Positions 51,406 through 56,887 of a stretch of 64,000 nt of DNA are shown here, piece after piece. Every line of letters begins with the position of its first letter. Position 1 is the first letter of the stretch. Under the pieces are notes generated by a model that was not told the DNA's origin, did no database searches, and saw nothing but the letters and a program-made list of their open reading frames with translations. The DNA comes from Mycolicibacterium chubuense. GTDB lineage: Bacteria; Actinomycetota; Actinomycetes; Mycobacteriales; Mycobacteriaceae. Both the position numbers and the translations under genes were made by a program. Location: assembly GCF_001044255.1 (NCBI RefSeq), contig NZ_JYNX01000060.1:325938-389937 (forward strand), given 5' to 3'.

Positions 51406-51479
51406 GGGGCTATAGCTCAGGCGGTTAGAGCGCTTCGCTGATAACGAAGAGGTCGGAGGTTCGAGTCCTCCTAGCCCCA
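51406..51479 (+). tRNA. tRNA-Ile (anticodon GAT)
   Basis: Acceptor GGGGCTA (51406-51412) pairs with TAGCCCC (51472-51478); the discriminator is A51479. The anticodon loop CTGATAA carries GAT at 51440-51442. The D-arm GCTCAGGCGGTTAGAGC and T-arm GGAGGTTCGAGTCCTCC are complete. CCA is not encoded. It lies after the DUF3566 gene. Confidence 0.96.
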
Positions 51480-51496
51480 CGGAAAGGTACACATCG

Positions 51497-51613: not shown

Positions 51614-51686
51614 GGGGCCTTAGCTCAGTTGGTAGAGCGCTGCCTTTGCAAGGCAGATGTCAGGAGTTCGAATCTCCTAGGCTCCA
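51614..51686 (+). tRNA. tRNA-Ala (anticodon TGC)
   Basis: Acceptor GGGGCCT (51614-51620) pairs with AGGCTCC (51679-51685), with one G-U pair; discriminator A51686. The loop TTTGCAA carries TGC at 51647-51649. CCA is not encoded. It begins 4 bases after the small DLW-39-like gene. The accessory light-sensing block starts downstream; I saw no duplicated tRNA 3' end. Confidence 0.96.
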
Positions 51687-51820
51687 CAAGCACCACAGCA
51701 ACTGTCCGCGCGCTGCCGGTCTGCGGACCCCGTCTCGCCATCGTCGCGAACTGCCCGCACCGAACGCCACGGCGGTGGACAATCATGCCCACACTGCAAC
51801 TGAACGGTGACGAGGGTGAG

Positions 51821-52453
51821 ATGTCGGTGGGCATGTCGACGAAACACCGAAGCGGCTTCACGCCGGCCCTCCGTCGCGCCACCGCCGAGGACCACGCCTC
51901 GGTGGACCGTCTCGTCGATCTCCCCCGCCTGGTCGAACGCGGGTACTACGCGGCGGTTCTCGGCGGGCTGATCGAGGCCGCCGAGGCCGTCGAGGCAGTG
52001 TTGCCCGGAATCCCGCGCGCACTGTGGGTCGAGGGGCTGTCGCCCGCCGAGGTGTCCAAGCGAGCAGCGATCGATGCCGAGTCATCCTTCCTCGACACTC
52101 TGGGCGGGTCCCGCCCGAACTCACCACGTGTCTACGACATCGGCCGACTGCCGCTGACGACGCCAGGACGCGCAGCCATGGTGGGTCTGATCTACGTCTA
52201 CGTCGGTTCGGCTCTGGGCGGCTTGCATCTGCTGCGCGTCGCCCGGACCGCGTCGTGGTGGCAGACCGACCGCGAACAGTCGCTGCTCCGACCCTATGGC
52301 GATCAACTCCACGCCCGCTGGCGCGCGGTGCTCGACGCCGTGGATCGCGTGGACGCGAAAGACGCAGACACCGCAATCGCGGCCGCGCGTGCCGGCTTCG
52401 AGCTCCACCGGACGGCGCTCGTCGAACATCTTTCGGCGGGAAGCCATCGATGA
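51821..52453 (+). CDS. bphO: Biliverdin-producing heme oxygenase (BphO-like)
   Basis: About 210 residues, all-helical heme oxygenase fold. The likely proximal heme ligand is His25 in ALRRATAEDHASVDRL. The distal-helix glycines are in YVYVGSALGGLHLLR. It should open heme to biliverdin, iron and CO. Its stop overlaps the start of the bacteriophytochrome gene (ATGA), so biliverdin supply is coupled to its user. Start choice: ATG 51821 follows GAGGG; ATG 51785 and 51833 are alternatives. M. tuberculosis has no gene here, and its heme degrader MhuD is of a different fold. Confidence 0.85.
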   Translation: MSVGMSTKHRSGFTPALRRATAEDHASVDRLVDLPRLVERGYYAAVLGGLIEAAEAVEAVLPGIPRALWVEGLSPAEVSKRAAIDAESSFLDTLGGSRPNSPRVYDIGRLPLTTPGRAAMVGLIYVYVGSALGGLHLLRVARTASWWQTDREQSLLRPYGDQLHARWRAVLDAVDRVDAKDADTAIAAARAGFELHRTALVEHLSAGSHR

Positions 52454-55260
52454 CGAGCGGCACCCCGGAGGCGATGTGGAAGGTGGTCGGTCACGAAGGC
52501 TGCGAGACCGAACCCATCGACAAGCCCGACGCGATCCAGGCACACGGATGGCTCCTCGCGGTCGACCTCGCGCGGCGCCGCGTCTCCCACGTGTCGTCGA
52601 ACCTTCAGGCGCCGATCTGCGCGAAGCTGGGCGCCCCAGCGGTGCTCGGGACGACTGTCGAGCATGTCGCCCGCGCGCTCGAGCTGCCCACCGGCGTCAC
52701 CCGATTCGAGGTGATCGATGGTTGGCGATCCCACATGCCTTGGCTGACAAGCGATCCCGTGGTGATCACCGCCCACGGGACGGCTGATCACTACATCGTC
52801 GAGGTCGAGCGTGACATCGCACCGATCGCTGAGGATCCGACCGCGATGATCAGCACGCTGCTGCAGGCGCCGAGTTGGCAGGTGTTCTCCGAGCAGACGG
52901 TCACGGCGCTGGGACAGATGTTCGGCTATGCGCGCACCATGGCCTACACGTTCCATCCCGACTACCACGGCGAGGTGACCGCCGAGTACATCAACCAGCC
53001 CGACCTGGAGCCATACCTCGGGTTGCACTATCCCGCATCGGACATCCCCCCGCAGGCCCGGCGGTTGTACGTGGAGCAACTGGTGCGGGTCATCGAGGAC
53101 GTCGACGGACCGACGGTCCATCTCCTGGGCTCGGCTCCCGAGGGCGGCCCGGCACGCGCTCTCGATCTCACCTTCGCTCACCGTCGCGCCGTCTCGCCGG
53201 TGCACCTGGAGTACATGCGCAACATGGGTGTGGCTGCCACCGCCGCGGTGTCGGTTGTCCAGCGCGAACGGCTGACCGGGATGTTCGTCATGCACCACAC
53301 CGAGCCCCGCGCACTCAGCCTGGGGGATCGTCAGGCTCTCACCACCGTCAGCCGCATCGCCTCATTCGTCGCAGCGACCATGGACGAGAAGAGCTTTGGC
53401 GCCCGGCGCGCTCAGGTGGCATCGCTCGCGGAAGAACTCCGCCGGAATCTCACGGCCGGAGATGACGCCATCCACTGCTTCCGCGCGGTCGGCGACGACA
53501 TGATGAAAGCGGTGCAGGCGGACGGGTTCGCCGCCCGGTTGGGTCGAGAGGTGGTCCGCCTCGGCGAGGTGCCCCGGCAGGAGGCGATCGACGATCTGTT
53601 TCGCGAATCCGGCTCGACAGCAAAGGACCTCGTGCAGGCAACCGACTGCCTCGCCGTCGACATGCCGCAGCTCGCCACCGCTGACACGTGTGCAGGCGCC
53701 ATCGTGTCCCGATTGCCGGGCACCCCGGAGGGGTATCTCACCTGGTTCCGCCGTCCGTTCCTCGACACCGTCCGCTGGGGCGGAGAAGTGAATGCATTGG
53801 TTCGCAAGGACGAACACGGGCGCCTGCACCCACGCGGGTCGTTCAGCGAGTTCGTCGAGAACGTCACCGACCGCAGCCGCATGTGGTCCGAGCACGACCG
53901 GATCGCGGCTGACACCCTCTACCAGGCCGTGCATTCAGGACTCAACGAGTGGGCCTATCGGCAGCTCGCGACCCAGGCGACCGTCGATCCGCTCACGGGC
54001 CTGGGCAACCGCCGCGCGCTGTCACTGGCCCTCGACAGCGAGATCCGATCCCCGCCCGCAGTACGGCGTTTCGCGCTGCTGTTCCTCGACCTGGATCGCT
54101 TCAAGCAGATCAACGATGCGTACGGACATCACCGGGGAGACCTGGTGCTGCAGGCCACCGCCGACCGGCTGGAGCGGGTGACGTTCTATCTGGTCGGACG
54201 GTCCGGCAGCGTGTTCCGCCTCGGGGGCGACGAATTCGTTGTGCTGCTCCGCGACACCACGTCCGGTGAGGTTTCGCGGGTCGCCGAGGGGATCCTGGCG
54301 GCGTTCCGGGATCCGGTGCTCGTGGAAGACGTCACCATCGTGGTGAGTGTCAGCATCGGTGCGGTCACCGACAGCGATGCCGAAGGCGTCGCCGACGCCG
54401 GTGAACTCCTGCGGCGCGGAGACCTGGCGATGTACTCGGCCAAACGTGCCGGCGGGTCTCGTATCACGTTCTACCAGGACGACTTCTCCCAGCGGGCGGT
54501 GCGTCGTTCGATGCTCGAGCAGCAGCTCTATCGGGCGCTCGCCGGCGACGAACTCGTTCCGGCATTCCAGCCCATCGTCTCGTTGCGAACCGGCGAGATC
54601 ATCGGCGCGGAGGCGCTCGCTCGATGGCGCCAACCGGCCGGCGATGTCCTCCTGCCCGACGAATTCGTCCCTCTCGCCGAGGAGACAGGTCAGATCCGCC
54701 AGGTCGATCGACGGATCACCGAGCGTGCCGTGGCGCAGTGCCTCGAGCTGTTGCGCGACAGGACCCGGCATTTCCACTTGGCGGTCAACGTCAGCGCGAT
54801 GACGGTGGACGCGGAGTACGTGACCTTCCTCGCTGATCTGATCGCGCAGTACCACGTCCCGCCCGACCGATTGACCATCGAGCTGACGGAGACGGCGATT
54901 GTCCACGAAGCGGGCCGACTTCAGCTGCTGCTCAACGCGATTCGATCGCTCGGTGTCACTGTGGCCATCGACGACTTCGGGATCGGCTACTCCTCGCTCG
55001 CCCATCTGCAGAATCTGCCGGTCGACATGGTCAAGTTGGACCGCACATTCGTCCAGCGGCCACGACGCGGCCACGACGTCGTCGCGCGCTGGGCGATCCA
55101 GCTGGTGTCGGATCTCGGATTACGCATGATCGCCGAGGGTGTCGAGACGCACCAGCAGGAAGAGATGTTGCTGTCACTGGGGTACGACTGGGTGCAGGGC
55201 CACCGATACGGCCCACCGAAGTTCGGACCCCCGCCCACCGGTCCGTACGAAGTGCAGTAG
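52450..55260 (+). CDS. bphP: Bacteriophytochrome with GGDEF and EAL output domains
   Basis: A 936-residue photoreceptor. Cys18 in EGCETEPIDKPDAIQAHG is the expected biliverdin-linking residue. PAS (~25-125) and GAF (~140-310) domains follow, with PASDIP (195-200) and chromophore His252 (SPVHLEYM). The PHY domain (~325-500) has WGG and the tongue motif PRGSF (461-465). GGDEF is 592-596 and EAL 721-723, with DDFGIGYSS and ELTETAI intact. The inhibitory RxxD position reads GRSG. Both cyclic di-GMP synthesis and breakdown look possible. It resembles BphG1-type PAS-GAF-PHY-GGDEF-EAL proteins. It is translationally coupled to bphO. Confidence 0.92.
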   Translation: MTSGTPEAMWKVVGHEGCETEPIDKPDAIQAHGWLLAVDLARRRVSHVSSNLQAPICAKLGAPAVLGTTVEHVARALELPTGVTRFEVIDGWRSHMPWLTSDPVVITAHGTADHYIVEVERDIAPIAEDPTAMISTLLQAPSWQVFSEQTVTALGQMFGYARTMAYTFHPDYHGEVTAEYINQPDLEPYLGLHYPASDIPPQARRLYVEQLVRVIEDVDGPTVHLLGSAPEGGPARALDLTFAHRRAVSPVHLEYMRNMGVAATAAVSVVQRERLTGMFVMHHTEPRALSLGDRQALTTVSRIASFVAATMDEKSFGARRAQVASLAEELRRNLTAGDDAIHCFRAVGDDMMKAVQADGFAARLGREVVRLGEVPRQEAIDDLFRESGSTAKDLVQATDCLAVDMPQLATADTCAGAIVSRLPGTPEGYLTWFRRPFLDTVRWGGEVNALVRKDEHGRLHPRGSFSEFVENVTDRSRMWSEHDRIAADTLYQAVHSGLNEWAYRQLATQATVDPLTGLGNRRALSLALDSEIRSPPAVRRFALLFLDLDRFKQINDAYGHHRGDLVLQATADRLERVTFYLVGRSGSVFRLGGDEFVVLLRDTTSGEVSRVAEGILAAFRDPVLVEDVTIVVSVSIGAVTDSDAEGVADAGELLRRGDLAMYSAKRAGGSRITFYQDDFSQRAVRRSMLEQQLYRALAGDELVPAFQPIVSLRTGEIIGAEALARWRQPAGDVLLPDEFVPLAEETGQIRQVDRRITERAVAQCLELLRDRTRHFHLAVNVSAMTVDAEYVTFLADLIAQYHVPPDRLTIELTETAIVHEAGRLQLLLNAIRSLGVTVAIDDFGIGYSSLAHLQNLPVDMVKLDRTFVQRPRRGHDVVARWAIQLVSDLGLRMIAEGVETHQQEEMLLSLGYDWVQGHRYGPPKFGPPPTGPYEVQ

Positions 55261-55366
55261 CCGACTACTGAGGGCGGCGGCCGAATACGGGTGGACACTG
55301 CGGTTCATCATGTAGCGCTCGCACGTCGGGGGCGATGTCGCTGCCTGCCGAGGATGGAGGACCGTG

Positions 55367-56887
55367 ATGAGCTCAGCGACGCGCACGGCAGTCGAGTGCA
55401 GCCGACACATCAGCCTGGCGGGAGCGCTCGCGGTCGGGCTCGGCATCGGCGCGGGGGTGATCGCCGGGCCGTGGACAGCATCAGCCTCGCCCGCAGAGAC
55501 CGGCACGTCATCGGTGTCGGACACAGCCTCGCGGCCGGACCGCGGCCCGTCCGCCGTCCCCCGCACCTCCGCCCGTGACCAGCGCGACCCGGCCGATTCA
55601 CCGGGCGCGCGTCGACGTGCGAACCGCTCGGACGGCGACACCGACGTCCGACCACGGTGGCGTCCGTTCCGCGCGGCAGACACGCAGACCACCTCGAACG
55701 AAACGGCACCCGTGAGTCTTTCGCTGCGCCGGCTGCCTCGGGCGCAGTCTCCGGTCGCGGACGCCGACCCGTCGAACACCAAATCACCCGACGTCCCCGC
55801 GGACGGCCCGACCGCCTTCACCCTGCTGGCGCTCTCGCGACGGGATACGGAGGAATCAGCAAACGCACTGAGACGCAACGGGGTGCGACCCCCAGTCGCC
55901 GAACGCGTCGTCGCGACCGGCGGGTCGACCGATCCTGTACCTGCCGACACCATCACGGCGCCTGCCGTGGAGCCCCCGGTCTTCACCGGGAGGCCGTCCC
56001 TCCTGTCCAAGACCTTGAGCGCGGTCTTCGGTGCGGTGGGCAAGATCGGAACTCTGGTGCATGCGGATCTGACATTCCCCCTGACGGGGTTGCTGCAGAG
56101 CGACCATCCGCCCCGGCGAACGATGCGCGGCCTGACGGTGGAGCGCACCGAGTTCGAGGGGATGCCGGTGTGGACCCTGCAGTCCGTCCGGTCGACCTCC
56201 GAGAAAGCCGTCGTGGCCGTGCACGGGGGTGCGCTGAGTCTTCAGCCGACGGTGTTCAACTGGCTGTTCTACAGCGCGATGGCGCGCAAGACCGGCGCCA
56301 CGGTGGTCGTGCCGCTCTACCCGTTGGTGCCGGAGGGGACGGCGCGTGAGGTGGTACCGGCGGTCGCCGACCTGATCACCACGCAGATCGATCAACGGGG
56401 CGCACCCAACGTCAGCGTCTTCGGTGACTCGTCCGGAGGCAACATCGTGTTGGTCGCCGTGCAGGAGCTGGTCCGTCGCGGCGATGCGATACCGTCGCGC
56501 ATGGTGCTGAGCGCACCCGGTGTGGACAGCACGCTGAGCAATCCGGCGATCGCACTCGTCGACGACCCGCTGTTCACCCCGGAAGTCCTCGCGGACCTCC
56601 GGACTAACGTCGCCCAGTGGGCCGACGGTCTGGACCTCACCGACCCGCTGCTGAGCCCGCTGTTCGGGTCACTCGAGGGCCTGCCGCCGACCGCGGTGTA
56701 CGTCGGCAGCCGCGATGTGGTCGCTCCGGACCTTCTGCTGCTTCGGGAGAAGGCCGCGGCGACGCCCGGTGCTGACTTCACGTTCGTCCTTCGCGAGGGC
56801 GAACTGCACGACTGGGCGATCTTCACGATCTTTCCCGAGACCAGGGCCGTCCTGCCCGACATCTACCGGCAGTTGGGCATTGCCTGA
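55367..56887 (+). CDS. Secreted HSL-family alpha/beta hydrolase
   Basis: A 506-residue protein. A signal-like helix (about 17-42, ending SASPAET) and a long Ser/Arg/Asp-rich low-complexity part (~45-200) precede an HSL-type hydrolase domain. It has the oxyanion HGGAL (about 286), the nucleophile GDSSGGN (about 353) and an Asp/His pair near VGSRDVVAPD and GELHDW. It is a likely extracellular esterase or lipase of the LipF/LipH type. GGAGG lies six bases before ATG 55367. It follows bphP by 106 bases, in the same direction. Confidence 0.78.
   Translation: MSSATRTAVECSRHISLAGALAVGLGIGAGVIAGPWTASASPAETGTSSVSDTASRPDRGPSAVPRTSARDQRDPADSPGARRRANRSDGDTDVRPRWRPFRAADTQTTSNETAPVSLSLRRLPRAQSPVADADPSNTKSPDVPADGPTAFTLLALSRRDTEESANALRRNGVRPPVAERVVATGGSTDPVPADTITAPAVEPPVFTGRPSLLSKTLSAVFGAVGKIGTLVHADLTFPLTGLLQSDHPPRRTMRGLTVERTEFEGMPVWTLQSVRSTSEKAVVAVHGGALSLQPTVFNWLFYSAMARKTGATVVVPLYPLVPEGTAREVVPAVADLITTQIDQRGAPNVSVFGDSSGGNIVLVAVQELVRRGDAIPSRMVLSAPGVDSTLSNPAIALVDDPLFTPEVLADLRTNVAQWADGLDLTDPLLSPLFGSLEGLPPTAVYVGSRDVVAPDLLLLREKAAATPGADFTFVLREGELHDWAIFTIFPETRAVLPDIYRQLGIA

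Follow-up and report, generated by a model that had tools for sequence, protein, structure and literature searches.

In the 64,000-nucleotide stretch of Mycolicibacterium chubuense analysed here (contig NZ_JYNX01000060.1; the window, to which all window coordinates refer), two overlapping genes, bphO and bphP, encode a divergent heme oxygenase and a bacteriophytochrome with cyclic di-GMP (cyclic dimeric guanosine monophosphate) output domains. The pair very probably represents a two-gene red/far-red switch of the BphG1/PadC-EAL type that sets cyclic di-GMP and passes as one unit from species to species within the genus. Judging from sequence and from analogy with characterised proteins, its most likely functions are biliverdin production, red/far-red light sensing, and modulation of cyclic di-GMP. 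As a preliminary description of this DNA had proposed, a single locus encodes the source of biliverdin, the sensor, and the cyclic di-GMP output, which is supported by Pfam domains and by motif alignments of both BphP and BphO.

Sensor and Output Modules of BphP

Pfam identifies PAS_2, GAF, PHY, GGDEF, and EAL domains in BphP, each above its curated cut-off. The motifs that the preliminary description had reported as intact are all present at the positions it gave, namely Cys18, PASDIP (195-200), His252, PRGSF (461-465), GGDEF (592-596), and EAL (721-723). A 10-sequence alignment of the window protein with seven relatives and two distantly related proteins shows no variation in Cys18, His252, GGDEF, or the tongue-motif residues P, R, S, and F, while variants elsewhere are slight (PAADIP in G225; DVP and EVL in G697; genomes and loci carry our own G and L numbers). 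The host genome contains a single photosensory-module match, which is bphP itself; full-length BphP matches 22 places there, its own gene included, and the others match in GGDEF/EAL regions only.

The four-base overlap between the two genes proved exact, with the bphO stop at 52451-52453 and the bphP ATG at 52450 sharing the sequence ATGA, and bphP ending at 55260. Adjacent bphO and bphP genes in the same order occur in nine genomes, indicating that the pairing is not due to chance.

BphO was assigned as a putative biliverdin-producing heme oxygenase from conserved residues and position, not from its Pfam score. A proximal histidine and distal-helix glycines are features of heme oxygenases, and both His25 and the GSALGG stretch of BphO align with two annotated members of this group. 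BphO has no NCBIfam match at E ≤ 0.01. Several observations weigh against the proposed switch: BphO reaches 21.1 bits against Pfam Heme_oxygenase (PF01126), below the 23-bit gathering cut-off; it is only 27% identical to its heme oxygenase counterpart in C. sphaeroides; and Pfam finds no PilZ cyclic di-GMP receptor domain in the host genome, despite the 22 GGDEF/EAL-type matches.

Comparison with Known Phytochrome-Linked Cyclases

The window pair is a further case of an already known kind, the BphG1-type pair of purple bacteria. An equivalent gene pair exists in C. sphaeroides, from which the characterised BphG1 comes. C. sphaeroides 2.4.1 carries two homologous copies of the pair, one on plasmid pDE and one on pC, in both of which an annotated biliverdin-producing heme oxygenase gene lies 67 bases 5' of a phytochrome-type EAL gene; the same gene pair is present in Rhodobacter sp. 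CZR27. The BphG1-type C. sphaeroides pairs resemble the window in domain order, motifs, the lack of a linker gap, and a heme oxygenase gene directly upstream. They differ in that their phytochromes are 33-35% identical to BphP over 96% of its length, in the 67 bases between genes that overlap in the window, and in the RxxD I-site retained by the pDE copy where the window has RSGS. Of the C. sphaeroides copies only that of pDE was aligned, and the records assign BphG1 to neither pDE nor pC. In both plasmid pairs, a recombinase-family gene is located not far 5' of the one for heme oxygenase.

The phytochrome-GGDEF structure 5llw/5llx, which we take to be IsPadC, aligns with BphP residues 17-672. 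Relative to the PadC set, BphP falls in a mycobacterial clade, and its nearest full-length homologues outside the genus are 37% identical in the order sample. In PMC9587094, the phytochrome-linked diguanylate cyclases of the PadC-EAL kind are defined by an N-terminal Cys, DIP in the GAF domain, a PRxSF tongue, GGDEF or GGEEF, and EAL or ExL, all of which are present in BphP. The same paper places the R. sphaeroides protein in the -4 linker class (PMC9587094). No gap separates PRxSF and DPLT when window BphP is compared with the pDE copy and, judged against that copy only, the BphP linker appears to fit the PadC-EAL -4 class.

Proposed Mechanism and the Direction of Output

In the proposed mechanism, BphO would open heme to biliverdin, supplying the presumed chromophore, and biliverdin would attach covalently to Cys18 of BphP. 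The phytochrome would then switch between its red-absorbing (Pr) and far-red-absorbing (Pfr) states, the tongue of its PHY domain would refold, and the coiled-coil linker would change so as to shift the balance of GGDEF cyclase versus EAL phosphodiesterase, such that light would set cyclic di-GMP. By analogy with studied PadC-EALs, the most likely direction would be more cyclase activity in red light. Chromophore, photoconversion, enzyme activities, and direction are thus attributed from BphG1 and the PadCs, and the integrase invoked below for mobility is likewise presumed.

An RxxD motif before GGDEF constitutes the I-site, a feature of GGDEF domains with feedback. At this position the window has RSGS and the C. 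sphaeroides homologue RPHD, and none of the eight family members aligned carries the Asp. Since the I-site is missing, the cyclase should be without ordinary product inhibition. The same absence is compatible with a protein that binds biliverdin but acts mainly as a light-regulated phosphodiesterase, its GGDEF domain only binding GTP and tuning EAL. This alternative is unlikely, although it deserves serious consideration: the EAL motif residues are intact, tandem proteins often have one inactive output domain, and phosphodiesterase output may matter more in PadC-EALs, according to PMC9587094. The GGDEF active-site residues, however, are invariant in the family, and the same paper describes cyclase activity in all three PadC-EALs assayed, with phosphodiesterase activity also in one of them.

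A Relative with an Apparently Exchanged Sensor

Two sister species according to the gyrA tree (G032 and G329) encode a protein with CHASE, GGDEF, and EAL domains and a PHY remnant, in addition to an uncertain PAS domain, below cut-off, in one of the two. From late GAF/PHY onward it is 56-60% identical to window BphP and groups with the BphP family (100/100), while PAS-GAF is missing, as is the PHY tongue from WGG to PRGSF. The output half of the phytochrome has apparently been rewired to another sensor in these genomes.

This lineage bears on whether BphP could be a redox, oxygen, or bilin sensor for which light is incidental, an explanation that we consider very improbable. The sole kind of support for it is that no light-regulated target gene is known. 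Against it, the chromophore Cys, DIP, and tongue motifs are retained together with the bilin-making enzyme in nine genomes, and the one lineage without PAS-GAF is also without the tongue, a joint loss that is expected if the tongue serves the chromophore.

Distribution of Phytochromes in the Genus and Beyond

Samples of 396 genomes of the genus, 397 of the order, and 396 of the phylum were searched. The rarity of phytochromes in mycobacteria that the preliminary description implied did not hold, as the photosensory module was matched in 98 of the 396 genus genomes (E ≤ 0.001; 112 match places). The window-type pair, in turn, is a rare type among genus phytochromes: its family (at least 69% identity) occurs in seven of the 396, own genome included. 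An eighth carrier, G697, comes from the order sample (4/397 at E ≤ 1e-100), and Mycolicibacterium chlorophenolicum DSM 43826 (bphP 95%, gyrA 99%, same gene order), closer than any other named relative found, is the ninth. In the phylum sample only the own genome reached E ≤ 1e-130 with BphP. A search with the BphO alignment recovered nine of the 396 genus genomes, corresponding to the seven carriers plus G032 and G329, and in all nine a phytochrome-GGDEF-EAL gene adjoins, that of G032 being broken. The Pfam heme oxygenase family search was discarded as an absence test: it was positive in 24 of 52 genomes yet missed the BphO of all eight given carriers, so absence in that search says little.

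The outputs of 69 match places other than the window's own were read, the 42 remaining ones being left out of the class counts. Seven have GGDEF and EAL, 56 have a SpoIIE output recognised by its motif, a further SpoIIE place (L021) was identified by eye, four have GGDEF only, and one is broken (L016). A histidine-kinase output for the other genus phytochromes was rejected, given that 57 of the 69 places have SpoIIE, with which Pfam agreed in the two scanned. These 57 PAS-GAF-PHY-SpoIIE phytochromes (among L018-L038 and L172-L211) share with BphP the biliverdin Cys and the DIP and PRxSF motifs, and differ from it in a phosphatase output instead of GGDEF-EAL, in a sensor ~29-38% identical, and in a conventional heme oxygenase, whose gene lies within the fetched flank at 19 of the 57 places. 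No characterised mycobacterial phytochrome was seen in searches of the open-access PubMed Central literature, including passages of PMC9587094, PMC8846402, and PMC9614035, with subscription papers and supplements outside this scope.

In G032 and G329 there is also another, distantly related bphO-bphP pair with GGDEF-EAL output, built on the same plan (L053, L054) and 31-32% identical to the window protein, whose bphP is broken by an internal stop in G032. Plasmid carriage was considered and rejected: 27 plasmid records match bphP (E ≤ 1e-60), all at below 60% identity and none from an actinobacterial genus, according to the taxonomy that we assume for these genera.

Chromosomal Places and tRNA Remnants

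The pair occupies three chromosomal places in total. It follows the transfer RNA (tRNA) gene for alanine in the window, M. chlorophenolicum, G054, G160, and G697; it adjoins tRNA-Cys in G067 and G159, lying 2.5 kb from it in G334; and it is found elsewhere in G225. The region 3' of tRNA-Ala is variable across the 59 regions where it was found (60 genomes). When the last 44 bases of tRNA-Ala were compared with these regions, one of them only 57 bases long, copies appeared in three: G047 (43/44), G012 (43/44), and G160 (36/44), against 25 in the next best region and 27 in the best of 200 simulated ones. In G160 the copy starts 4 bases after the bphP stop, and therefore tRNA-Ala and its copy bracket just bphO-bphP; in G047 a Phage_integrase gene adjoins tRNA-Ala. 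Where the pair lies near tRNA-Cys, 15 bases separate the end of bphP from the tRNA in G067, and in G159 the last 30 bases of the tRNA are shared with bphP. In G334 bphP overlaps a decayed copy of the tRNA-Cys 3' end (score 24 versus at most 16 in 300 shuffles), the intact tRNA-Cys lying 2.5 kb further. The pair is probably cargo of elements inserting at tRNA genes.

The copies downstream of alaT in G012 and G047 are located at L099:6822-6894 (G012) and L119:799-842 (G047). ARAGORN labels the G012 copy, probably an attachment-site scar, as tRNA-Pro (TGG).

Transfer or Descent

In the bphP tree, G160 belongs to a group (100/100) that also contains the window, M. chlorophenolicum, and G054. By gyrA alone (60 rows), G160 stands apart from the window, in a nine-row group with G225, the other non-window carriers, and three non-carriers; by rpoB alone and by gyrA and rpoB joined (26 rows), it pairs with G225 (100/99). 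The joined markers group six carriers with one non-carrier (97/96), a group that rpoB alone leaves unresolved. In approximately unbiased (AU) tests, the markers reject window, G054, and G160 as a group (p = 3e-18), and bphP rejects the six other carriers as a group (p = 0.002).

Vertical inheritance with losses, the tRNA neighbours being coincidental, is a quite unlikely account of these data. The conflict of G160 between bphP and two markers, the three different places of the pair, the duplicated tRNA 3' halves that border it in G160 and G334, and the tRNA-Ala copies in G047 and G012, with an integrase gene beside tRNA-Ala in G047, all argue against it. In its favour, the carriers are concentrated in two regions of the gyrA tree (3 changes versus a shuffled mean of 8.6), from which it follows that vertical descent plays a part, and the window contains no attachment repeat. 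Such a repeat was sought and rejected both in the window, where 24 bases from the 3' end of tRNA-Ala have a single match (up to 3 mismatches), and in the own genome, where a 19-base piece likewise has one (up to 1 mismatch).

Further points count against transfer as a unit. The interval bracketed in G160 contains bphO and bphP only, with no integrase, and none is found among the genes adjoining the window pair, the neighbours of other copies not having been scanned. Four carriers (the window, M. chlorophenolicum, G054, and G697) have no far-side alaT repeat after bphP. In G067, G159, and G334, a remnant of tRNA-Cys is absent 5' of bphO. The groups for the AU tests were picked with the trees already known, and gyrA and rpoB themselves conflict in places; for example, gyrA joins G019 to the window and rpoB does not. 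G019 (gyrA 97%, rpoB DNA 94.5%) is without the pair, its tRNA-Ala being followed directly by the sdaA-like gene.

Base composition reveals no sharp island at the window pair. Third-position GC (guanine plus cytosine) is 0.80 in bphO, 0.83 in bphP, and 0.84 in the next gene, and 0.89-0.91 in gyrA, the Rv0007-like gene, and sdaA. The acquisition suggested in the preliminary description from the neighbouring tRNA gene gains support: tree conflict, the three places, and the remnants in relatives agree with it, while the window itself lacks the repeat. In the comparison of pair and species trees that it called for, G160 contradicts purely vertical inheritance, and the clustering of carriers by gyrA speaks against a purely mobile trait.

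More tentatively, bphO-bphP may be a minimal mobile cassette, carrying a whole circuit from red light to cyclic di-GMP and spread by integration targeted to tRNA-Ala and tRNA-Cys, with a light input that can be swapped within the genus, and in one branch a CHASE membrane sensor would have captured the output half, with loss of exactly the light-sensing parts, PHY tongue included; we regard this extension as conceivable rather than probable.

As a side observation on the marker genes, gyrA is interrupted near codon 130 in G054 (L042:14208-14765, minus strand), and gyrA matches start at residue 129 or 130 in 20 of 60 cases, presumably as expected of a GyrA intein.

Organisation of the Locus

In the window, gyrA, an Rv0007-like gene, tRNA-Ile, and tRNA-Ala precede bphO and bphP, which lie in the same orientation, and an alpha/beta hydrolase gene, an L-serine dehydratase-like (sdaA-like) gene, and cwsA follow; the names gyrA, Rv0007-like, and sdaA are our presumed designations. 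The alpha/beta hydrolase gene (55364-56887), between bphP and the sdaA-like gene, encodes a long N-terminal part and has a counterpart only in M. chlorophenolicum among the loci compared. Table 1 lists the main features.

Table 1. Coordinates of the pair, its flanking elements, and the sensor-exchanged relative (window positions unless a locus is given).
Feature	Position	Strand	Remarks
tRNA-Ile	51406-51480		Upstream of tRNA-Ala
tRNA-Ala (TGC), alaT	51614..51687	+	3' half duplicated further downstream in three related genomes (integration site)
Promoter-like element GGTGGACAATCATGC (GGTGGACAAT-type)	51774..51788	+	Upstream of bphO; lead only
bphO, predicted divergent biliverdin-type heme oxygenase	51821..52453	+	Conserved His25 (from this start), GSALGG stretch
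bphP, PAS-GAF-PHY-GGDEF-EAL bacteriophytochrome, 936 amino acids, BphG1/PadC-EAL type	52450..55260	+	ATGA overlap with bphO
Cys18 codon, predicted biliverdin attachment	52501..52503	+	Motif position, alignment
Codons 584-587 (RSGS), I-site position	54199..54210	+	Aligned with the RxxD that the C. sphaeroides homologue has; Asp absent from the eight family members aligned
CHASE-PHY-GGDEF-EAL protein	L051:761-3991, L052:7604-11005	-	Pfam; G032 and G329

The element at 51774-51788 has a match (up to 3 changes) 5' of bphO in six of nine genomes, at two different chromosomal places, making it a possible promoter candidate. An alternative upstream ATG for bphO, at 51785, falls inside this GGACAAT-type element. 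The start at 51821 is more likely, because similarity beyond M. chlorophenolicum fades before ~51821 and the ATG at 51785 sits in that element.

Significance

An effect of the pair on lipids, pigment, or biofilm is a matter of speculation. What the pair does offer is a way to make a neglected question testable, namely red-light sensing in non-photosynthetic mycobacteria. About a quarter of the sampled genus genomes have a phytochrome-type match, and the pair stands as a compact case in which chromophore enzyme, sensor, and output adjoin. With a heme oxygenase supplied by the pair itself, it is a candidate part for optogenetics as well, and the tRNA scars suggest a route by which such a circuit may be shared between species.

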